Below, one piece after another: positions 10,365-28,932 of a DNA stretch of 49,795 nt (within the stretch, counting starts at the first letter, position 1; each line of letters opens with the position of its first letter). The position numbers were made by a program, and so were the translations under genes. The stretch lies in assembly GCA_947168335.1 (NCBI GenBank), contig CAMVLM010000008.1:1-49795 (forward strand), in the 5' to 3' direction. The notes below the pieces were generated by a model. That model saw only the letters and a list, made by a program, of their open reading frames with translations, had not been told where the DNA came from and did not search any database. This stretch comes from an uncultured Butyrivibrio sp. GTDB lineage: Bacteria > Bacillota > Clostridia > Lachnospirales > Lachnospiraceae.

Positions 10365-10396
10365 TTAGATTTTCCCAATTAAATAATTATAATAAA

Positions 10397-10430
10397 GATT
10401 CCCGGTGGTTTTTCCACCGGGAATCTTTTT
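10397..10430 (+). terminator. Strong rho-independent terminator
   Basis: A 12-bp perfect stem (10397-10408 with 10414-10425), extended by A/T pairs, has a TTTTT loop and is followed by a T-run. It closes the lacI-importer operon. Confidence 0.93.
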
Positions 10431-10488: not shown

Positions 10489-10561
10489 CTATGTACTATT
10501 ATTTATATAGGGTTACAGTGAGCATAGTATGCGCTTAAATACGTATCAGGAGGGTATCGGG

Positions 10562-12040
10562 ATGCTTAAGGATTTTATTAAATCAGATTTGCCGGAAGAA
10601 ACTGAAATCTCAGAAAAGCTTAAGGAAGAAAGAGCCAGATTATCTGCCTTTCAGATGAAGATTAAGGAGGCATCTTTACCTGTAATGGTGCTGTTTGAGG
10701 GGTGGAATGCATCCGGAAAAGGCGCAATTATCGGAAAGGTTATAAGAAACATCGACCCCAGATTCTTCAAAGTGGCAACAATGGACAGAGAGCCGAGTGA
10801 AGAGGAAAAACGCTATCCGTTCCTTTACAGATACATGAAGGAAATACCGGAGGCAGGAAAATTCAGATTTTTCGACACATGCTGGATGGAAGAAGTGGTG
10901 GATGGCGTTCTCAACGAGGAATTGACTGAGGAAGTCTATGAAAAGAGAGTCCATTCCATCAATGTTATTGAAAGACAGCTTTGTGATAATGGCTATCTTA
11001 TCGTGAAGTTTTTCTTCAATATCTCGAAAAAGGAACAGAAAAAGCGTCACGATGCACTTGCTGCCAGCAAAAATACAAGCTGGAGAGTAAAGAAGGATGA
11101 CCTTTTACAGAATAAGCATTATGAGAGGTGTCAGGATGTCTTTGACAGGTATCTGGTGGATACAAACCAGTCCAGGGCACCCTGGTATATTATTGATGCT
11201 TCGGACAAGAAATGGGCTGAATTGCAGGTGCTGCAGTACCTTAATCAGGGAATTGATACCGCGCTTAAAAACCATGCAATGAATGTGCCTATTCTTCAGA
11301 ATACATTCCCTTTAACGAAAATCGGAAAATTATCTGAAATATCGCTTGCAGATAAGGTTATGACAGATGAAGAGTACGATACTATGCTTAAGTCTCTCCA
11401 AAAGGAGCTGAAGGATCTGAATAACCGCATTTACCGGAAGAAGATTCCTGTAATTATTGCTTATGAGGGATGGGATGCAGCCGGAAAGGGCGGAAATATC
11501 AAGAGGATTACTGCAGCTCTTGATCCCAGGGATTATGTTGTTGAACCTATAGCAAGTCCTGAGCCTCATGAAAAAGCAAGGCATTATCTATGGAGATTCT
11601 GGACAAGACTTCCCAAAACAGGTCATATCACTATTTTTGACAGAACCTGGTACGGAAGAGTAATGGTTGAGAGATTAGAGGGCTTCTGTTCAGAAAATGA
11701 CTGGCAGAGAGCTTATAATGAGATAAATGAGTTTGAAAAGGAGCTTAGTGACTGGGGTGCTGTAATCATTAAGTTCTGGGTTCAGATAGACAATGAAACT
11801 CAGCTTAAGAGATTCACTGACAGACAGAACACACCTGAAAAGCAGTGGAAAATTACTGATGAAGACTGGAGAAACAGAGAAAAGTGGGATCAGTATGAGA
11901 CTGCAATTGATGAAATGATAGCGAAGACCAGCACAGAATTTGCGCCTTGGCACGTGCTTGAATCTGTTGATAAGAAATATGCAAGAATTAAAGCACTCAA
12001 GATTGTTATAAGGGAATTAAAAAAGGCATTGGATAGATAA
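10562..12040 (+). CDS. pap: Polyphosphate:AMP phosphotransferase (two-domain PPK2 class)
   Basis: The cytoplasmic protein of 492 residues is a tandem of two PPK2-type P-loop kinase domains, the layout of enzymes that phosphorylate AMP to ADP using polyphosphate. Domain 1 has the Walker A-like EGWNASGKGAIIG but a divergent lid region (FDTCWMEEVV). Domain 2 has EGWDAAGKGGNIK and the intact FDRTWYGRVMVER block, so domain 2 looks like the main catalytic one. The start at 10562 was chosen because AGGAGG lies at 10548-10553; the ATG at 10529 has no good site, and 492 residues fits the family. It is the first gene of a four-gene run with a permease-kinase fusion, MgtC and an adenosine-deaminase-fold protein. 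Confidence 0.9.
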   Translation: MLKDFIKSDLPEETEISEKLKEERARLSAFQMKIKEASLPVMVLFEGWNASGKGAIIGKVIRNIDPRFFKVATMDREPSEEEKRYPFLYRYMKEIPEAGKFRFFDTCWMEEVVDGVLNEELTEEVYEKRVHSINVIERQLCDNGYLIVKFFFNISKKEQKKRHDALAASKNTSWRVKKDDLLQNKHYERCQDVFDRYLVDTNQSRAPWYIIDASDKKWAELQVLQYLNQGIDTALKNHAMNVPILQNTFPLTKIGKLSEISLADKVMTDEEYDTMLKSLQKELKDLNNRIYRKKIPVIIAYEGWDAAGKGGNIKRITAALDPRDYVVEPIASPEPHEKARHYLWRFWTRLPKTGHITIFDRTWYGRVMVERLEGFCSENDWQRAYNEINEFEKELSDWGAVIIKFWVQIDNETQLKRFTDRQNTPEKQWKITDEDWRNREKWDQYETAIDEMIAKTSTEFAPWHVLESVDKKYARIKALKIVIRELKKALDR

Positions 12041-12063: not shown

Positions 12064-14991
12064 ATGGGAAACATTCACGAAAATCATGCTAAAGGTCTGA
12101 CCAAATACTTATCTCCACTGGGTGTATGGGCGCTTTCGTTCGGCTGTAGTGTCGGATGGGGTGCATTTGTCATGCCCGGAACCACATTTTTGCCTGTGGC
12201 AGGTCCTGTGGGAACAATTATCGGTATTATTATCGGTTCAGTGATCATGCTTATCATAGGCATGAATTATGGGTATCTCATGCAGTATTATCCAGATGCG
12301 GGAGGTACATTTATATATACCTGTAGGGAATTTGGTTATGATCATGGCTTTTTAAGTGCATGGTTCCTTATTCTGACTTATGTTGCCATTGCATGGGCTA
12401 ATATGACGGCTCTTGCACTTATCTTTAGAAATTCCGGGATGACCTTTTTTCAGGTGGGATTTCATTATAATCTTGCCGGATTCGAAATTTATTTTGGGGA
12501 AATACTGTTTGAAATTCTTGTATTTGGCATCTGTGCATTGGTTTGCGCATATGGAAAGTATTTAGCGGAGCATCTGCAGATACTGTTTGCTTTGATACTT
12601 TTTGTGGGTATCCTGCTCTTATTTATTATTTCTATATGGAAAAACCCGGGTACAGCATCTGTTAAGCCATATTTTTCTCCGGATAAAGGCTGCTTTTCGC
12701 AGGTTATAAATATCATAGTTCTGGCCCCCTGGGCATTCATAGGGTTTGAGTCGGTTTCTCATTCAGTTGAAGGCTTTAAGTTTAAGATAGAGAAATTTAA
12801 GGGCCTTTTGGTGTTTTCGGTTTGCACTATATCCATTGCATATATGCTTTTAACATACCTTGCTGCAACCATCAGACCAGATGAATACAGCAATTGGGCA
12901 GAGTATATTGCTGATCTTAATAATGTTTCAGGTTTGAAATCCCTGCCTGTTTTTTACGGGATATGGAAAAGCATGGGAAATGTAGGCATTTCACTTCTTG
13001 CAGTGGTTATCGGAGCCGGTATAATAACAGGAATAGTCGGAAATCTGATTGCCGCCAGCAGACTTATGGTATCCATGTCCAAAGAAAAAATATTGCCAAA
13101 ATGGTTTTCAGAGCTTACAGACAGCGGGCTGCCTAAGAACGCAATATTGTTTTTGTTTGCAATATCGGTTGTTATTCCTTTCTTTGGACGCACAGCTATA
13201 GGTTGGATAGTTGATGTTACCACTGCGGGAGCGACGATTGTATATGGCTTTACTTCCGCAGCGGCATATAAGAGGGCAAAGCACGAAGAAAATACTGTTG
13301 CATTAGTTTTTGGCGCAATTGGTCTTCTTGCGGCGGTTTTCTTTGGATTATTCCTTACAGTTCCAAATTTGTGGCTGTTATCAGCAATGGCTACGGAGAG
13401 CTATCTGATTCTTGCTATCTGGAGCATCCTTGGATTTGTATTTTTCAGATGGGTATTCTCCAAAGATGAAGAGCAAAAACTTGGAAAATCTACAGTAGTC
13501 TGGATTGTTATGATTCTGGTTATTTTCTTTTCATCTTTGATGTGGACCAGGCAGTCAACACATTCTAATGTAGAATCATTGTTGACCGATATTACTGAGT
13601 ATTATGGTCAGGAAATGAAGGAACGCGGTATAGGAGATGAGGAGCGCGACCTTAACGAGGAGAGAGAAGTACTGCAGGCAAATGTTGATGAGGTTAGCAG
13701 TATTCTTCTAAGTAACAGTATCATACAGATGACGCTCATTTTAGCTGCTATTGCGATATTCTTTAATGTTTATACACATTTACAGAAACGCGAGAAAAAG
13801 ATAATCGCAGAGAAGCTTAAGGCTGAAGAAACCAGTAAGGCGAAGAGTACATTCCTGTCGAATATGTCACATGACATCAGAACGCCTATGAATGCCATCA
13901 TAGGATATATAAATCTGTCAAAAAAGGATGATATAACGCTTCCTGAAATGAGGGAATTCATGGGGAAGATAGAGGACTCAAGTAAGCATCTGCTTGAGCT
14001 TATAAATGATATCCTTGAAATGAGCAGAATAGAAAATGGCAAGATTGAGCTGGCTAAAGAAGATACGGATATCGTTCATTGCATGAATTCTGTCAGGGAT
14101 ATGTTTGCAACTCTGATGAAGGAAAAGAAAATAGCCTTTTCCGTTGATAGTAATAATGTTAAGGACAGAGTTGTTTTAATGGATAAGAGTCATTACAATC
14201 GAGTGTTATTAAATCTTATAAGCAATGCATACAAGTTTACACCTGAGGGAGGTCAGGTAAAGGTAACTCTTAAACAGGTTGGGGAAGCTCATCAGGGAGA
14301 TGCGGATTATGTTATCCATGTAAAAGACAGTGGAATCGGTATGTCCAAAGAATTTGCTGATAAAGTATTTGAAGCCTTTGAAAGAGAGCGCACAAGTACT
14401 GTCAGTGGAATTCAGGGAACCGGCCTTGGAATGGCAATAACAAAGAATATAATTGATCTTATGGGCGGTGACATAAAGGTAATCACGGCACCCGGAAAGG
14501 GAACAGAATTTGTTATAAGCCTGACCATGGAGCTTGGTGATCCGAATAAGGTATTCAAGGAAGCTTATAATGGTGATGGTAAAGAGAGTGTAATAGATTT
14601 TAAGACAAAGAGAATCCTTTTGACGGAAGACATTGATGTAAACAGGGAAATTGCGTCAAGGCTGCTTAAACGTCAGGGATTTATGGTTGAAACCGCTGTA
14701 AACGGTCAGGAGGCTGTAGATAAAGTAAGTGATGCTGAGCCGGGGTATTATGATCTGGTCCTTATGGACATTCAGATGCCCGTTATGAATGGTTATGATG
14801 CTACTAAGGCTATCAGACAGCTGGATGATGAAAAGCGCGCTAAAACGCCAATAATCGCCATGACAGCCAACGCTTTTTCTGATGATGTGCAACACGCACA
14901 TGATGTGGGCATGAATGCCCATATAGCTAAACCTATCGATCCCAAGGGCATGATAGAAACTATTACTGAAGTACTTTTATGGGGTGATTGA
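12064..14991 (+). CDS. Amino-acid permease fused to a hybrid histidine kinase
   Basis: The 975-residue protein joins a complete APC-family transporter to a signalling module. Residues 1 to about 460 are a polytopic permease with the APC TM1 block WGAFVMPGT. Further hydrophobic segments near residues 479-495 and 556-575 flank a roughly 60-residue, probably external, charged helical region. Then come a coiled-coil linker, a dimerisation/phosphoacceptor helix (SHDIRTPMN, His603), a HATPase domain with N-box (NLISNAYKF), DSGIGM and GTGLGMA motifs, and a receiver domain with Asp902 (LMDIQMPVMNG), an acidic pair at 855-856 and the KP motif. GAGGGG precedes the ATG by 6 nt. There is no DNA-binding output and no separate response regulator next door. 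By analogy with SLC5-kinase fusions such as CbrA, it may couple solute sensing or transport to phosphorelay. Confidence 0.9.
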   Translation: MGNIHENHAKGLTKYLSPLGVWALSFGCSVGWGAFVMPGTTFLPVAGPVGTIIGIIIGSVIMLIIGMNYGYLMQYYPDAGGTFIYTCREFGYDHGFLSAWFLILTYVAIAWANMTALALIFRNSGMTFFQVGFHYNLAGFEIYFGEILFEILVFGICALVCAYGKYLAEHLQILFALILFVGILLLFIISIWKNPGTASVKPYFSPDKGCFSQVINIIVLAPWAFIGFESVSHSVEGFKFKIEKFKGLLVFSVCTISIAYMLLTYLAATIRPDEYSNWAEYIADLNNVSGLKSLPVFYGIWKSMGNVGISLLAVVIGAGIITGIVGNLIAASRLMVSMSKEKILPKWFSELTDSGLPKNAILFLFAISVVIPFFGRTAIGWIVDVTTAGATIVYGFTSAAAYKRAKHEENTVALVFGAIGLLAAVFFGLFLTVPNLWLLSAMATESYLILAIWSILGFVFFRWVFSKDEEQKLGKSTVVWIVMILVIFFSSLMWTRQSTHSNVESLLTDITEYYGQEMKERGIGDEERDLNEEREVLQANVDEVSSILLSNSIIQMTLILAAIAIFFNVYTHLQKREKKIIAEKLKAEETSKAKSTFLSNMSHDIRTPMNAIIGYINLSKKDDITLPEMREFMGKIEDSSKHLLELINDILEMSRIENGKIELAKEDTDIVHCMNSVRDMFATLMKEKKIAFSVDSNNVKDRVVLMDKSHYNRVLLNLISNAYKFTPEGGQVKVTLKQVGEAHQGDADYVIHVKDSGIGMSKEFADKVFEAFERERTSTVSGIQGTGLGMAITKNIIDLMGGDIKVITAPGKGTEFVISLTMELGDPNKVFKEAYNGDGKESVIDFKTKRILLTEDIDVNREIASRLLKRQGFMVETAVNGQEAVDKVSDAEPGYYDLVLMDIQMPVMNGYDATKAIRQLDDEKRAKTPIIAMTANAFSDDVQHAHDVGMNAHIAKPIDPKGMIETITEVLLWGD

Positions 14992-15680
14992 TGAATATTT
15001 TTAGTTTTTTGAGTGGTTCAAACGATGTTGCGGTAGCAATACGACTTTTACTGGCATTTGTTTTCGGGAGTCTGATCGGACTTGAAAGGATTTATACAAA
15101 ACACAGTGCCGGTATTAAGACGTTTGCGCTTGTAAGTCTCGGATCTGCGGTTGCTACTGCACTTAATATCTACCTTTCGCAGATTTATGCAGGTAATGTT
15201 GATGTAGGACGTATACCGGCGGGAGTTGTAAGTGGAATAGGCTTTTTAGGAGCCGGTACTATACTGGTTACGGGACGAAAACAAATTAAGGGACTGACTA
15301 CAGCGGCATCCCTCTGGGTAACTTCCTGTATGGGAATGGCGCTTGGCGGCGGTGCCCTGACAGTAGGCATAGTATGTTTTGCTCTTATTATCATATCTAA
15401 TGTTGTTCTTATGCGCGTCAGTGTGGCGGTTGAAGAACACAGCAAGTACATGAGTATATACGTAGAGGTTGAAAAGGACGGCGGAGTCGGAAGGCTGAAC
15501 AGATGCATAAGCGGAGCTGGTTTCAGGATAAGCAGCATCACAAAGAGCAAGGAAAAGACTCTTCAGTCTTCTGATATTGCAGTAATTCTGGATGTTGATC
15601 TTGATAAAAATCTTCCGCATCGGGATGTCATTGATTTTTTGAGTGAACAGGATTTTGTTAATTACGTGGAAGAAATCTAA
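14991..15680 (+). CDS. MgtC/SapB-family membrane protein
   Basis: The 229-residue protein has the MgtC hallmark of a hydrophobic N-terminal half with GSLIGLER near residue 25, the RIPAGVVSGIGFLGAG block, and GLTTAASLWV, followed by a soluble ACT-like tail of about 85 residues. MgtC proteins are linked to growth at low Mg2+ and modulation of membrane energetics rather than to simple transport. Its ATG shares one base with the TGA of the permease-kinase fusion, so the two are translationally coupled. The ADA-like gene follows 18 nt later. Confidence 0.88.
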   Translation: MNIFSFLSGSNDVAVAIRLLLAFVFGSLIGLERIYTKHSAGIKTFALVSLGSAVATALNIYLSQIYAGNVDVGRIPAGVVSGIGFLGAGTILVTGRKQIKGLTTAASLWVTSCMGMALGGGALTVGIVCFALIIISNVVLMRVSVAVEEHSKYMSIYVEVEKDGGVGRLNRCISGAGFRISSITKSKEKTLQSSDIAVILDVDLDKNLPHRDVIDFLSEQDFVNYVEEI

Positions 15681-15698: not shown

Positions 15699-18173
15699 AT
15701 GACTTATTTTACGAGTTTTTTTCTTGATACGGAAAAGGATATAATCGTTAGTCTCTATAAAGATATGGACAGTCTTCACTATGTTCTGGAGACGCCCAAT
15801 CACCACACCGGCAATTTAATAAGGAATCTTGCAAGGATATGTAATCTGCCCTTATCCCAGAATGATGAGGGCAGGCTTATTATTCGAGGGGAAGTTCCGT
15901 GTTATGTGGATGCCTCAAATAACGACTTATATGTGTTTAAGCTGGGAGATATCGAGATTGCCATAATTTACCCGGATTCAAGGGTGGAGATGAGGGCTGC
16001 GATACCTGCTATCGCCAAGACGCTCATGAGTCAGACCAAGGATTATCAGCTGGATCTTAATAAAACAATATTCAGGACTTTCATCAAAAAGGATCTGAAA
16101 TTCCATGCGGATCTGCACACACATATGAACGGGAATCTGCCGGGAGATGTGCTTATTGCTCTTGGAATTTTTCATCAGATACGATATCCGCTTTATTATG
16201 TTAAAAAACTGGAGCTTGAGCTTACTGACGAGCAGTGGGAAAAGATTAATGCTCAGCGCGAAAAGGTTGCGAGACAGTTTGTGTCTTCAGAGCTTAAGGG
16301 AAAATATCTTGATAGACGAATTAACGATAATACATTTATCAATTTTGCGGACTTGATTCTCAATAATCTTGATAATGCGGAAATGAATATCGTTAAAATA
16401 CGCGGATCGCTGGCGGTAATAAAGGATGGACAGGCTGTTTTTACTAATCTTGAAAAGGTCTATCTGTATCGCTATGTTTTTGCCAAGGGAGTTGAGAGCG
16501 AAGATAAAATTGAACTTAGTGGTGTGAATCAGATTCCCGATGAGGATGTTAAAGCCACCCTTAAGCAGATGTTAAGGGACAAGGAGACTCCGGAATACTG
16601 TAACAATACCATTTTTCAGGACAAGCTTCTTTGGATTGCCCGCAATTACGAAAAACAGGGTGTTCGTTACGCTGAAATCAGTGATACCACCCTCGTTAAA
16701 AAGTATGAGTCTATAGAAATGCTGCGTCAGGTGCATGAGGTAATGCCTAAGATTTATCAGGAAACAGGTGTTATGATTCGCTTTTTGGCAGCAATACGAA
16801 GGATTCCGCTCACTATTGTCAAGGATGCTGTGACTCCGTCAGATTATCTTGAGCAGAATCTGGAGGTTTTAAGAGCAACCTATCTTGATCCCTACGTTGC
16901 CGGATGTGACTTTGTAGGCGAAGAAATAAACGACATTATTACCCTCAAGCCTGTATTTAAAGAGCTGGTGAAATTCGCCGCAATTGATCCTTCTTTTGTT
17001 ATAAGGGTTCATGCGGGGGAGAACGACAGTCAGAAGGACAATATTGCCCATAGTATTGCCTGTGTAAGGGATTCCCTGCTTCCGGGACAGAAAATGCCGC
17101 AGATGAGGCTTGGACATGGATTATATACCTATAGTCCCAGATCAAAGAAGGGCCGAGAGGTCGTAAAACAGCTAAAAGAAAACAATGTGGTGCTGGAATT
17201 CCAGATTACAAGCAATGTGCGCCTGAATAATCTGAATTCATTGAAAAATCATCCTCTGAAATATTATCTTAAGCATGGGATAAGATGCGTTCAGGGAACG
17301 GATGGTGCTGCACTTTACGGGACAGGTTCCATAGATGAGCAGCTTTCCCTGGCAAAAATGCTGGATCTTACGGAAGAAGAGCTAAAACTCATGAAGGATG
17401 CGGAAACGGCGATTATCGAGAGCAATCAGGCTGCATATTCCGAGAAAAAGGCCGCATTTTATGCCATGCTTAAGGGCAGGGATATGGGAGAATTTTTGCT
17501 GGAAAAGATGAAAACGGTGAAAATCTCCAAGAGTATCGGAAGGGGAGTCAAGAAATTCGATGCTAATAAGGAGCTTAAGGATGAAATAGGCGAGCTTCCA
17601 TGGGATCGTTTTCCTGTTGTGCTTCTGGGAGGAAGCTTTAATACCGAAAGCCGGTCAACCAGGGTTACCGGGGATGGAGCAAAACAGCTGGATGCGCTTT
17701 TGGAGTACTTAAATCCTGACGAAGTGTTCTTTGTGATAGGGCATAAGCTTTCCGGCTATGAAAAGTATCTGCTTGAGTATAATGAGAAAAAATTCCGCAT
17801 ATTTGCGGTTGTACCTTCACTTATCACCAAAAAGGAAAGTGAGAAGTTGAAGGAAAGCGGTGTAAAGATAAGGGTTTCAACAGAAGCAGAGGGTATGGGA
17901 ATATACAAGAGCTTTAACTATGAAATTTTCGAGAGAAGACCCTCCATGGTGGTTGCTTTTGACGGAAACAGTGCAGGAGCAAATCTTATTCAGGAAGCCA
18001 AGAACGGGAAGGGAAAATCCGTTATTTTAATATGGAGCCATTCCAGGACGCTGCAGCAGAAGGCAAAATCGCTTCATGGATACATAAGCTATTTTGATGA
18101 AGAAAACAAGATAGTAGATCAGATTCTCAGAATGCAGAAAAAGTTTGCAGGCTTTAAGCGGGAAGAAACTTAA
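15699..18173 (+). CDS. Large adenosine-deaminase-fold protein with a C-terminal Rossmann-like domain
   Basis: The 824-residue protein carries adenosine-deaminase superfamily motifs in order: DLHTHMNGN (His140, His142), RVHAGEN (His438, Glu441), RLGHG (His473), ITSNV and GTDGAA (Asp535). These supply the usual Zn ligands and catalytic Glu. Unusual features are an N-terminal module of about 130 residues, a long insertion between the first and later motifs (about residues 150-300), and Gly536 where typical members have a second Asp. Residues about 635-810 form an additional alpha/beta module beginning VVLLGGSF, suggestive of a SLOG/Rossmann nucleotide-binding fold. AAAGGAAGG lies before the ATG. 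It ends the cluster started by the polyphosphate:AMP phosphotransferase. A purine nucleoside or nucleotide deaminase activity is likely, the substrate is open. Confidence 0.75.
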   Translation: MTYFTSFFLDTEKDIIVSLYKDMDSLHYVLETPNHHTGNLIRNLARICNLPLSQNDEGRLIIRGEVPCYVDASNNDLYVFKLGDIEIAIIYPDSRVEMRAAIPAIAKTLMSQTKDYQLDLNKTIFRTFIKKDLKFHADLHTHMNGNLPGDVLIALGIFHQIRYPLYYVKKLELELTDEQWEKINAQREKVARQFVSSELKGKYLDRRINDNTFINFADLILNNLDNAEMNIVKIRGSLAVIKDGQAVFTNLEKVYLYRYVFAKGVESEDKIELSGVNQIPDEDVKATLKQMLRDKETPEYCNNTIFQDKLLWIARNYEKQGVRYAEISDTTLVKKYESIEMLRQVHEVMPKIYQETGVMIRFLAAIRRIPLTIVKDAVTPSDYLEQNLEVLRATYLDPYVAGCDFVGEEINDIITLKPVFKELVKFAAIDPSFVIRVHAGENDSQKDNIAHSIACVRDSLLPGQKMPQMRLGHGLYTYSPRSKKGREVVKQLKENNVVLEFQITSNVRLNNLNSLKNHPLKYYLKHGIRCVQGTDGAALYGTGSIDEQLSLAKMLDLTEEELKLMKDAETAIIESNQAAYSEKKAAFYAMLKGRDMGEFLLEKMKTVKISKSIGRGVKKFDANKELKDEIGELPWDRFPVVLLGGSFNTESRSTRVTGDGAKQLDALLEYLNPDEVFFVIGHKLSGYEKYLLEYNEKKFRIFAVVPSLITKKESEKLKESGVKIRVSTEAEGMGIYKSFNYEIFERRPSMVVAFDGNSAGANLIQEAKNGKGKSVILIWSHSRTLQQKAKSLHGYISYFDEENKIVDQILRMQKKFAGFKREET

Positions 18174-18178
18174 TCTGC

Positions 18179-18991
18179 TTAAGTAAATTCATAATTATGT
18201 GATTTGATATAGGAAACAACATCAAAATCGAATACTTCACTAAGGCGTTCTGCTGTCAGAGCGCCTTTTTTAGGTGCAAAAAGCACAAGGCGACCGTCTT
18301 TTAAGAAAGCGATGTCGTCTGCAATTCCGGCAGCTGTATTAAGATCATGGAAAACGCCGATAACAGTGGGTTTATAAGCCTTGTTGTCGGGCATGGTAAG
18401 GGTGGTAGTTCTCCAATTGGCTAGATATTCCATGAATTCCGCCTGGATTTTGAGGTCAAGATGGTTCATGGGTTCATCAAGCATGAGAATAGGGCATCTC
18501 TGAGCTATGCATCTTGCCAGCATGACGCGCTGAAGCTGACCACCGGAAAGGGCTGTTATCTGTTTGCCTGCAATTTGGCTAAGTCCCAGGGATTCTAAGG
18601 TTTCATCTACAATTTCTCTGTCAGAGCGGTTTTTTTCAAAAAACAGGCCCTTATGGAGATATCTTCCCTGCATTACCGTTTCATAGACACTGTAAGAAAA
18701 ATAGACACTGCTTATCTGAGACAGGAATGCCACATAGGAAGCGATTTCCTTTCTCTTCATGGCGTTTATGCTTTTGCCATTGATATGAATATCCCCGGAA
18801 AACGGCAGCATTCCTGCTATTGTTCGAAGCAGGGTGGTTTTTCCGCATCCGTTACTGCCAAGAAGGCTTACGCAATGTCCCTCTGCTATGTCAAAAGAAA
18901 TATCCTGAAGGACGGGTGTTTTGTCATAGCCTGCTGTGACATGGGATAGAGATATTATGTTGTTTGCTGAATTTAAAGGATTATTTGTCAT
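18179..18991 (-). CDS. ABC transporter ATP-binding protein (FecE/BtuD type)
   Basis: The 270-residue ATPase has Walker A (GSNGCGKTT), the signature LSGGQLQRV and Walker B (ILMLDEPMNHLD), plus the H-loop in VFHDLN. It is the usual length for ATPases of iron-siderophore, haem or cobalamin importers. It lies 30 nt downstream of the FecCD-type permease gene and is the last gene of a three-gene operon. Only 5 nt separate its stop from that of the convergent ADA-like gene, and I see no terminator there. Confidence 0.9.
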   Translation of the reverse strand: MTNNPLNSANNIISLSHVTAGYDKTPVLQDISFDIAEGHCVSLLGSNGCGKTTLLRTIAGMLPFSGDIHINGKSINAMKRKEIASYVAFLSQISSVYFSYSVYETVMQGRYLHKGLFFEKNRSDREIVDETLESLGLSQIAGKQITALSGGQLQRVMLARCIAQRCPILMLDEPMNHLDLKIQAEFMEYLANWRTTTLTMPDNKAYKPTVIGVFHDLNTAAGIADDIAFLKDGRLVLFAPKKGALTAERLSEVFDFDVVSYIKSHNYEFT

Positions 18992-26163: not shown

Positions 26164-28932
26164 TTAATGCACAAATTCAAAGCTTCTGAATGCACCGCTT
26201 CCGCTGCCCACAAATGTAAAATACAGGGCATTTACACCTGAAACAGGGGCGAAGGAGCATTTACCTTCGGTCCATATATTCTGTGAATTCACATCGATTT
26301 CGCCAAGAACATCGCCGTCCCAGGAGGTTTTTATCTGAACTTTTCCATTGAAATAGCCTCTGGTCCATATCCTGATTCCGGTCACATCTTTCATGTCGAA
26401 GTACTTGAATCCAGCGGTTGAGCCATCTGACATATATCTGATATAGCCAATCTGAGGATCTCCGTCCTTGCCGTCCTGAACGATCCTTGGTCCCGAAGCA
26501 CCGACATACATAGAATGCTCAGGAGTAAAGAGGTTGCAGGCAATATATGCGGGATATTCTCCAATATCACTTAAAGGGCCGTTATTAAGGCCGCAGGATG
26601 TTATTTCAGGCTGGATAATATGGCCGTCGTTAGTAAATGATAGCTTTTCGGCACAGCCCTGTCTGCTGTACCAGGTATTGTTTGTGTGACGATGATAGAA
26701 AATATACCAGTCATCACCAATCTGTACCATGCTTCCGTGATTGTTTGCACCACTGGCCATTGGCATATCTGCGGGTTTGTACGAATCTATATGCAGGTCG
26801 CAGTTGCTTACGACTACACCGCCATAATTAAAGGGCCCTTCCGGCGAATCCGAGGTGGCGTAGCAAAGCTCGTGCATTACTTCGGAGGAGTAGATAAAGT
26901 AATATTTTCCACCCTTTTTGCGGATAGAGGGAGCTTCGAAGAATGCGTGTTTTTCGTAAGGCGTTCCCTGACTGTAGCAGCTTCCGGGTGCTATGATCTT
27001 TGGAGCTTTTTCCACTGTGAGCATATCGGAGCCAAGAACAGTGAGCATTGCTCCGGATCTGCTCTTATCACCCTGACCGCAAAAACCGGTAAATAGGTAG
27101 GTTTTTCCGTTCTCAGTAAGAACTCCGGGATCAAATTGAGGCTCATCACCTTCTTTGTCACCGAGTTTTGTCCCGTCCGGATAATGTACATAGCCCAGGA
27201 ATTCATACTTTCCGGCAGGAGTGTCGCAGACAGCTACTGATACAACGGATACCTTATCAAGCACATAGTAGAGGTAGTATCTGCCATCCGGACCAACAGT
27301 GACATCCGGGGCGTACAGGCACATGTGACCATCCCTGTTAAGGGGATCAGAGGTCTTGGGATAAATGATGCCTTCATAGTGCCAGTTTCCAAGGTCGTTG
27401 ATAGGAGCAGACCAGCATACATAGTCTCCGAGACAGAAGGTTTCGCCTTCGTAGAGGTCATGGGAACCATATACATATACCCTGTCACCGAAAACATAGG
27501 GCTCTCCGTCCGGAACATATTCCCATGAGGGAAGATAGGGGTTAACGGCCTGCTTTTTACCTGTCATTCCCAGACGTATACCGCCTTCATGAGAAGGAAC
27601 AGCGCCTCTGCCGTCAAAGATCATCTCTGCCTTGTTATCTTCAGTGTATGGCTGCCAGAGGGGGAGCTTTTCTCCGCCCCAGTCACTTCCGTTGGGATCA
27701 CCTGTTTTTATGAAGTTGGCGAACATATCGCACATTTGTCTTGAAAGCTCAAAATGGCGGCCTTTTAAAGGTCTCCAGCATTTTCCGAGAGTTTCAAAGA
27801 AGAACCAGAGATCTACGGAATGGAAGGTTCCGGGATGGTCTTCGCCGGGCATATCGGGATCAAATCTGTAATAGTAGTGATTCTGCCTGCTTCCGTTTTT
27901 GGCAGCATCTGCAAATGCGCTCTTTACGGACATTTCTACGATGCTGTTTCCATTCATCAGAAACTCGTCAGATGTATTGCCTGCTAAAACAGGAGCATCT
28001 GCGCAATCTCCCTTGATGAATTTTTCAACCGGATCGTCATTACAGAATACACCGTCCTGTATAGGGAACATGCGAGGATGAGTCTGGACATATTCACCAT
28101 ATTTTGCACGAAGAGTAAATGCGTCCAGTTTTCGTGCCTCTTCCAGGCTTTTTACACCGATAAAATCAAAGAATTCTTCACCTTTTTTTTCTGCTTCGCC
28201 AAGTGAAAGGGGATGAAAAATATCGGCATCATCATCGGGATGTCTGATAATTCCGCTGAATACGCAGGCTCCTTTAATTTTGTCAAAGTTATCTTTGCAG
28301 GTAAACTGGTGCATTACACTGGCACCACCTGCAGACTGACCGGCTATGGTAATGCGCTCCGGGTCTCCGCCGAAGGCTTCAATGTTTCTGTAAACCCAGG
28401 AAAGACCGGCTTTCTGGTCAAGAAGGCCAAAGTTACCCGGCGCATCCTTTGCTTCTGCTGTAATCTCCGGATGAGATAAAAATCCAAATAAAGCAAGACG
28501 ATAGTTGACACTTACTACAATAACACCTCTGCGGGCGAGCTTTTCTCCGTCAAATTCCATTTCGGCGGTGTAACCCCATTGAAAGCCGCCACCAAAGTAC
28601 CATACAAGTACCGGGAGTTTTTCGTCTTTTGATTTGGCAGGTGTCCATATATTCAGGTAAAGGCAATCTTCATTCATTGCGATTTCCGGATCTACGTGCC
28701 ATTCTTTGCAATATACATCTGTACCTACTCCGGGAGTATCCTGAATGGAAATAGGCGCATATTCATAGGCTTTCAGCACACCCTCCCAATTTTTGGCAGG
28801 CTGCGGTGCGCGCCATCTGTTTTCGCCTGTCGGCGGTGCTGCAAATGGTATTCCTTTATAAACCGTTATTCTGGGATCTGAGCCGGGAAGGCCCTGAACT
28901 TCCCCGTTTTCAACGGCAGTTTTTCTAAGCAT
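26164..28932 (-). CDS. Type-B carboxylesterase fused to GH43 with a C-terminal CBM-like module
   Basis: The 922-residue protein has three parts. Residues 1 to about 445 are a type-B carboxylesterase with the nucleophile elbow GQSAGG (Ser200), the NEDCLYLNIW block and the distal HSVDLWFFF histidine. Residues about 455-765 are a GH43 domain with VPDGEPYVFGDRVYVYGSHD (base Asp), FDPGVL and FFEAPSI (acid Glu). Residues about 785-922 are a beta-sandwich tail like CBM6-type modules. There is no signal peptide, so it should act inside the cell, removing acyl groups and arabinose or xylose from imported oligosaccharides. AGGAGGT lies 7 nt upstream. It is divergent from two GH43 genes with a mirror-symmetric promoter region. 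The esterase part is shorter than stand-alone relatives. Confidence 0.88.
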   Translation of the reverse strand: MLRKTAVENGEVQGLPGSDPRITVYKGIPFAAPPTGENRWRAPQPAKNWEGVLKAYEYAPISIQDTPGVGTDVYCKEWHVDPEIAMNEDCLYLNIWTPAKSKDEKLPVLVWYFGGGFQWGYTAEMEFDGEKLARRGVIVVSVNYRLALFGFLSHPEITAEAKDAPGNFGLLDQKAGLSWVYRNIEAFGGDPERITIAGQSAGGASVMHQFTCKDNFDKIKGACVFSGIIRHPDDDADIFHPLSLGEAEKKGEEFFDFIGVKSLEEARKLDAFTLRAKYGEYVQTHPRMFPIQDGVFCNDDPVEKFIKGDCADAPVLAGNTSDEFLMNGNSIVEMSVKSAFADAAKNGSRQNHYYYRFDPDMPGEDHPGTFHSVDLWFFFETLGKCWRPLKGRHFELSRQMCDMFANFIKTGDPNGSDWGGEKLPLWQPYTEDNKAEMIFDGRGAVPSHEGGIRLGMTGKKQAVNPYLPSWEYVPDGEPYVFGDRVYVYGSHDLYEGETFCLGDYVCWSAPINDLGNWHYEGIIYPKTSDPLNRDGHMCLYAPDVTVGPDGRYYLYYVLDKVSVVSVAVCDTPAGKYEFLGYVHYPDGTKLGDKEGDEPQFDPGVLTENGKTYLFTGFCGQGDKSRSGAMLTVLGSDMLTVEKAPKIIAPGSCYSQGTPYEKHAFFEAPSIRKKGGKYYFIYSSEVMHELCYATSDSPEGPFNYGGVVVSNCDLHIDSYKPADMPMASGANNHGSMVQIGDDWYIFYHRHTNNTWYSRQGCAEKLSFTNDGHIIQPEITSCGLNNGPLSDIGEYPAYIACNLFTPEHSMYVGASGPRIVQDGKDGDPQIGYIRYMSDGSTAGFKYFDMKDVTGIRIWTRGYFNGKVQIKTSWDGDVLGEIDVNSQNIWTEGKCSFAPVSGVNALYFTFVGSGSGAFRSFEFVH

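Follow-up and report, generated by a model that had tools for sequence, protein, structure and literature searches.

Can an amino-acid permease serve as the input part of a histidine kinase, and what would such a receptor control? The question is raised by a gene in a 49,795-nucleotide stretch of DNA from an uncultured Butyrivibrio sp. (positions 1 to 49,795 of contig CAMVLM010000008.1, assembly GCA_947168335.1), the whole of which is called the window here. A single open frame at 12064-14991 of the forward strand, starting with ATG, encodes a protein of 975 amino acids (aa) in which a permease of the APC type is followed by a linker, a histidine kinase (HK) and a receiver (REC). This architecture is conserved in relatives, where it is genetically linked to genes for HPt proteins and for enzymes of cyclic di-GMP (c-di-GMP) turnover. 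We consider it probable (roughly 0.6) that the protein is an APC permease turned membrane receptor, feeding a phosphorelay that usually ends in a change of c-di-GMP. Its parts are as follows (TM, transmembrane helix).

12064-14991, forward strand: whole APC-linker-HisKA-HATPase-receiver protein, 975 aa (open reading frame and Pfam)
12109-13446, forward strand: APC permease core, residues 16-461 (Pfam AA_permease_2 and AA_permease; profile matches to CAT1 and GkApcT)
12748-12750, forward strand: codon of Glu229, the TM6 position of GkApcT Asp237 (alignment with sensors and stand-alone relatives)
13492-13548, forward strand: extra membrane helix 13, about residues 477-495 (hydropathy)
13549-13701, forward strand: predicted extracytoplasmic helical segment, residues 496-546 (sequence, hydropathy)
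13702-13776, forward strand: extra membrane helix 14, about residues 547-571 (hydropathy; aligned throughout alignment A1)
13777-13839, forward strand: putative cytoplasmic signalling helix leading to the DHp domain, residues 572-592 (sequence; presumed role)
13840-14040, forward strand: HisKA (DHp), with His603 at 13870-13872 (Pfam)
14182-14529, forward strand: HATPase_c, with conserved N and G boxes (Pfam, alignment)
14614-14964, forward strand: receiver, with Asp902 at 14767-14769 (Pfam)

Matches above the Pfam gathering cut-offs span the permease core (AA_permease_2 at residues 16-432, 75.1 bits against a cut-off of 27, and AA_permease at 26-461), which places it in the APC permease family, and continue with HisKA (593-659), HATPase_c (707-822) and Response_reg (851-967). 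The HisKA domain with its His, the HATPase domain with its N and G boxes and the receiver with its Asp make up a complete hybrid histidine kinase, and neither His603 nor Asp902 varies among the 66 full-length proteins that make up alignment A2, the window protein included. These matches bear out an earlier note on this DNA, which had read the same chain of APC transporter, linker, DHp/HATPase domains and receiver from the letters alone. Among solved structures, the best profile matches of the permease core are CAT1 (9uat, E 1.7e-17, in two stretches) and GkApcT (6f34 and 5oqt), the latter entry aligning almost the whole core (profile 7-467, E 3.5e-12). Pfam returned neither an SLC5/SSF match up to E 0.001 nor an Amt/Rh (ammonium-transporter) domain in the window protein.

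The linker holds two predicted membrane helices and, in the Pfam scan, no further domain (whether Pfam has a STAC model was left unchecked). Stand-alone relatives stop at about 450-530 aa, to be compared with extra helix 13 at about 477-495. Between the two helices lies a charged segment of about 50 residues whose length differs among relatives and which is predicted, from flanking basic residues, to face the outside.

A join of two genes by an assembly or frame artefact, at about 13480-13560, had been raised as a possible source of the fusion. Comparison with other genomes effectively rules it out. The window's own genome encodes a paralogue with 36% identity over the whole length, and a permease-linker query matched 22 of the 61 nearest genomes at E 0.001, some of these matches being partial. 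Among 20 fetched loci (19 from same-genus genomes and the own-genome paralogue; loci carry the prefix L below), 18 encode APC-HK-REC proteins with 35-75% identity to the window protein; of the two exceptions, one runs off its contig (L052) and the other has GGDEF in place of the kinase (L058). Named genomes yielded at least 585 relatives among 596 candidate stretches, and the best 80 of these comprise 71 APC-HK-REC, two APC-HK-REC-REC and one APC-GGDEF proteins and six cut frames. The domain order is therefore found across the questioned join in 18/20 genus loci and 71/80 of the best named-genome loci, from many projects, which confirms that the architecture is real and belongs to a widespread family. 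By NCBI rank the best 80 fall into Lachnospiraceae (26), Selenomonadaceae (19), Oscillospiraceae (16), Veillonellaceae (1), Atopobiaceae (1) and taxa without a family (17), the odd taxa possibly reflecting binning errors in metagenome-assembled genomes, and 46 of the 80 have titles mentioning a ruminant host or a stomach or gut compartment. A single scan of viral contigs with the linker as query returned no relative, and a viral context was set aside.

In all, 121 APC frames were classified, duplicates counted: 99 APC-HK-REC, four APC-HK-REC-REC, three APC-HK cut at a contig end, five with GGDEF and ten with APC alone (six alcohol-dehydrogenase (ADH) fusions and four cut frames). The six ADH fusions (L100-L105, e.g. 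L100:6663-9320), from six genomes, join an APC permease to an iron-containing alcohol dehydrogenase in proteins of 885-963 aa; their APC part is 24-27% identical, and class III aminotransferase genes lie near at least two of these loci. Elsewhere (L252:4504-9406 and L253:393-5382), two tandem APC-kinase proteins lack a receiver and have kinase motifs that look eroded by eye; such pairs perhaps form a heterodimeric sensor.

To place the fused permeases among other family members, we inferred a maximum-likelihood tree of 76 APC-part rows, made up of 39 of 110 loci hand-picked for spread, intact frames from later fetches and four of the six ADH fusions, with the cut or broken L210, L225 and L251 excluded. 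The tree splits fused APC parts from stand-alone permeases with support 99/94, a single fused member (L093) falling on the other side. When the very long row L099 is left out, all 49 of 49 fused APC parts lie on one side with support 100 (quick method) and 26 stand-alone or ADH-fused rows on the other; L099 was also excluded from the residue comparisons below, and its TM6 likewise reads GFE. The fused permease module has one origin. Seven members carry GGDEF in place of the kinase (L058, L090, L091, L092, L127, L218 and L224), two of them with REC and EAL besides (L090 and L091), and a constraint placing the seven in a single clade is rejected (p-AU 0.0062). One and the same permease-plus-hairpin module has therefore seen more than one change of output, and within the fused clade the exchange for GGDEF/EAL occurred at least twice. 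These data give good support to an APC-based input module swapped among kinase, GGDEF and EAL outputs, and output exchange on one input module is usual for sensors.

This exchange also bears on the idea that the permease is the functional end of the protein, with the attached kinase regulating it or simply being carried along. Transporters with regulatory domains do exist, and this counts in favor of the idea; we found no direct evidence for it. Kinase and receiver are catalytically conserved throughout, relatives carry GGDEF or EAL in place of the kinase behind the same permease module, and relay genes are enriched next door; all three points argue against the idea and leave it with a slim chance.

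The enrichment was measured at 110 loci, a count that omits the ADH loci L100-L105, the duplicates L107, L157, L165 and L175, and L177, which holds a 997-aa APC-HK-REC frame and was dropped by an overlap filter favoring a longer antisense frame. Genes encoding GGDEF/EAL proteins make up 26 of 379 near neighbors (within two genes) versus 4 of 541 farther ones (one-sided p 2e-7), HPt genes 13/379 versus 2/541 (p 4e-4) and other kinases 31/379 versus 6/541, the p-values being optimistic since the loci are related. The counts are approximate, as many contigs are short and the filter may hide genes. HPt genes were detected with one BLAST query and clustering, and one (L147) was added by hand after Pfam confirmation; without it the near count is 12.

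In some relatives such genes complete a relay. APC-HK-REC, REC-GGDEF-EAL and HPt genes follow one another on the same strand at L222 and L219, the order is REC-GGDEF-EAL, HPt and APC-HK-REC-REC, again on one strand, at L172, and the pair is arranged divergently at L096 and L151; the genes scanned at these five loci exceed Pfam cut-offs, L096 being unscanned. REC-GGDEF and HPt genes adjoin the fusion at six loci of the genus (L042, L043, L046, L047, L055 and L056), and at L089 the fusion is followed by an HD-domain gene, presumably of the HD-GYP kind from its motif. In the window no such gene is adjacent, and candidates lie elsewhere in the same genome: free HPts (C52 and C48) and REC-GGDEF matches that share 54, 47 and 42% identity with the linked protein. 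Given that the kinases are enriched for HPt and REC-GGDEF/EAL neighbors, some of which make a relay complete, the output is most likely c-di-GMP. We infer the same output for the window species, even though neither its HPt nor its REC-GGDEF genes adjoin the fusion gene. The phosphoryl output, which the earlier note had left open, can be narrowed through relatives that encode HPt and GGDEF/EAL proteins beside the fusion, or GGDEF/EAL within it.

Whether the permease part acts as a receptor or as a transporter was approached through its residues, with GkApcT positions mapped by eye from the profile alignment. The position of GkApcT Asp237 is Glu in 49/49 sensors compared and in 66/66 full-length proteins, whereas it is Asp in 20 of 22 stand-alone relatives (Gly in the other two) and in 4/4 ADH fusions; the window protein, with Glu229, has no equivalent of this TM6 Asp. 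According to PMC5803215, conservation of Asp237 is high across SLC7, and GkApcT no longer transports once it carries D237A. The cytoplasmic TM6 motif PQ..EE is present in 17/17 stand-alones compared and mostly lost in sensors; the 17-row set omits L215, L217, L255, L226 and L227, all five of which have Asp and Phe at the Asp237 and M321 positions. In the pocket, the M321 position is mostly Asn in sensors (29/49) and Phe in 21/22 stand-alones, so specificity probably differs between the two groups. Sensors have Trp at the position of Thr43 (48/49) and of Phe231 (49/49). The permease part shows nothing acidic where GkApcT has Glu115 and nothing basic in place of Lys191. Sensors and stand-alones alike lack Glu115 and Lys191 themselves, and both retain the helix-break glycines of TM1 and TM6 together with Arg376, Trp381 and Asp384; Arg327 is retained in 46/49 sensors.

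The residues common to both groups, and the charge kept by Glu at the Asp237 position, would suit a true transceptor, in which the APC part still transports its solute and the kinase reads the transport cycle, that is flux, as proposed for CbrA. Against this stand the uniform Glu of the sensors, the loss of their PQ..EE motif and the linked outputs, which are c-di-GMP enzymes and not uptake genes; we regard a transceptor as unlikely, if still a serious possibility. The fixed Asp-to-Glu change leans toward occupancy over flux as the signal, and the residue pattern, short of proof, hints at a drift from transport to sensing, as reported for Ks-Amt5.

In the permease-derived receptor that we favor, ligand binding, signal direction and phosphotransfer would run as follows. 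A small amino-acid-like solute would bind the permease pocket, and the resulting movement would pass through the two added membrane helices and the signalling helix to the DHp domain, where it would alter autophosphorylation of His603. The phosphoryl group would pass from His603 to Asp902 of the attached receiver; a free HPt protein would next take it up in trans and hand it to a receiver-GGDEF or receiver-EAL protein, with changed c-di-GMP as the usual end result. Several observations weigh against this receptor. In the window, the fusion gene is adjoined by PPK2 and MgtC genes and not by HPt or GGDEF genes; a GGDEF/EAL gene lies within two genes at only 25 of 110 loci, some of them on short contigs; and outputs are not uniform, an OmpR-type regulator overlapping L040 and a CheB-type protein adjoining the tandem APC-HK pair of L252. 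The Asp-to-Glu change, moreover, is a conservative one, from which alone a loss of transport does not follow.

As for the ligand, the suggestion of a polyamine or cationic amino acid is not supported: the Glu115 and Lys191 equivalents are missing, and some of the nearest stand-alone relatives sit in organosulfonate or sulfur gene sets. Marker enzymes above NCBIfam equivalog cut-offs adjoin the permease at three of 17 stand-alone loci, namely (2S)-3-sulfopropanediol dehydratase HpfG (1543 bits, cut-off 1000) with HpfH (571 bits, cut-off 500) at L208, sulfoacetaldehyde acetyltransferase Xsc (772 bits, cut-off 676) at L248 and cysteate sulfo-lyase CuyA (544 bits, cut-off 450) at L254, in a sample biased by the use of L208 itself as the query of the phylum search. 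Weaker neighbors, of aminotransferase or thiosulfate type, occur at L214, L215, L217, L250, L251 and L255, and only a TauE-like gene at L249; sulfonate-type neighbors are absent at L209, L210, L211, L212, L213, L216 and L247. The stand-alone permeases themselves, sometimes two or three in tandem (L248:6264-9279, L250:6026-11391, L208:6555-7967, L254:6194-7624), adjoin genes for Xsc, HpfG/HpfH, CuyA, or an aminotransferase and alanine dehydrogenase, and are candidate organosulfonate permeases.

For the fused proteins, a sulfur-containing ligand is a lead rather than a finding, suggested by these stand-alone neighborhoods and by the rhodanese-domain proteins described below. A SulP transporter gene or fragment lies near 9 of 110 fusions. 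Counting against a sulfonate, the tested sulfonate markers were found near none of 115 fused loci (duplicates counted) except for a CuyA-like gene (34%) at the own-genome paralogue, and the sensors differ from the stand-alones at the M321 pocket position. In that paralogue's region (G000:C31:19750-30817; L054, L258), this gene for a pyridoxal-phosphate enzyme is about 7 kb away and a SulP gene is near. Within the genus, a SulP-STAS-type transporter gene recurs near the fusion (L041, L044, L048, L049, L050, L051, L052 and L054).

A rhodanese-domain protein is encoded after 17 of the 110 fusions, in 16 cases immediately, or after 18 if L144 is counted from its motif, its gene having been hidden by the overlap filter; 14 of the 17 are from Selenomonadales/Selenomonadaceae by title. 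These proteins are single or tandem, mostly lipoprotein-like and carry a CxxxxR loop (e.g. L124, L133, L134, L138, L145 and L173), three having been checked by Pfam. They would fit a scheme in which sensing is done by the two-helix hairpin and its outside segment, with an exported partner such as a rhodanese-domain protein, and the APC part only anchors the protein in the membrane. That scheme appears quite unlikely: the outside segment is short and variable whereas the APC pocket positions are highly conserved, and the same-genus loci L039-L058 are all missing from the 17. Returning to the permease-derived receptor, its extension to a family of receptors for organosulfonates or another sulfur solute (taurine-, cysteate- or dihydroxypropanesulfonate-like) that set c-di-GMP in rumen and gut anaerobes, some lineages having an exported rhodanese-domain partner, is doubtful, the ligand being its speculative part.

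How does this protein compare with known systems? Full-text searches of the open-licence PMC literature, together with passages of PMC13022988, PMC11109136, PMC8534201, PMC5764959, PMC5803215 and PMC11489063, gave no description of an APC-histidine-kinase or APC-GGDEF fusion, though the domain order may have an entry in domain databases. The earlier note, too, knew of no transporter-kinase fusion with an APC permease; those described in the papers are SLC5-STAC and Amt kinases. CbrA/CrbS resemble the window protein in joining a transporter-fold membrane part to a histidine kinase in one chain (PMC13022988), but the fold is SLC5 rather than APC, the CbrA linker is a STAC domain plus PAS instead of two membrane helices, and the partner is CbrB, where relatives of the window protein have HPt and GGDEF/EAL proteins. 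Ks-Amt5 is likewise an uptake transporter turned sensor, fused to a histidine kinase without a HAMP domain and reported to have lost transport; it differs in being an Amt trimer, with a kinase part described as DHp and CA only and with its output regulator unidentified (PMC5764959). The 5TMR kinases use a transporter-like fold as input, that of an ECF S-component rather than APC (PMC11109136). Yeast Gap1-type transceptors are signalling amino acid permeases (cited in PMC11109136), with no covalent kinase and a eukaryotic protein kinase A pathway. GkApcT and CAT (SLC7), to which the APC part is nearest by profile among solved structures, have no kinase, and Asp237, Glu115 and Lys191 are unmatched in the sensors.

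In the literature covered, APC joins SLC5 and Amt as a third, unrelated transporter family fused to kinases, and the loci described here form a large new branch of transporter-fused sensors, which goes beyond what had been noted from the window. One sensor clade with kinase, cyclase and phosphodiesterase outputs is a ready-made set of variants in which to study the conversion of a permease into a receptor. That conversion can be put to direct test, since the replacement of Asp by Glu beside the pocket spans the clade and falls on a residue already examined in GkApcT. The receptor would also account for one input to c-di-GMP signalling in rumen bacteria, few such inputs being known to us.

The fusion gene lies in the window among the following features.

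10394-10428, reverse strand: terminator-like hairpin, 15 pairs, upstream of the gene set (hairpin scan, scored on the minus strand)
10529-12040, forward strand: PPK2 polyphosphate:AMP phosphotransferase (TIGR03708, 571.3 bits against the NCBIfam cut-off of 547.65)
14991-15680, forward strand: MgtC family protein (Pfam MgtC; listed as a frame from TTG at 14988)
15699-18173, forward strand: adenosine-deaminase-like protein, 824 aa (Pfam A_deaminase, 60.8 bits against a cut-off of 27)
18242-18267, forward strand: terminator-like hairpin, 11 pairs, downstream of the gene set (hairpin scan)

The PPK2 gene ends 23 bp upstream of the fusion gene and is likely in the same operon, the ATG of the MgtC gene overlaps the fusion gene's stop codon, and the order PPK2-fusion-MgtC is retained in a same-genus genome (G013, L039). 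Because terminator-like hairpins flank the set, the four genes may form one transcript with the adenosine-deaminase-like gene last; the scan found seven hairpins in the region against 5.5 expected by chance, only a slight excess. With these neighbors, no DNA-binding response regulator adjoins the fusion gene within the window, as had been noted before. Farther along the window, a gene on the reverse strand (26164-28932) encodes a 922-aa protein combining a carboxylesterase and a GH43 glycosidase, likely a bifunctional plant-wall enzyme, with further GH43 genes adjoining.

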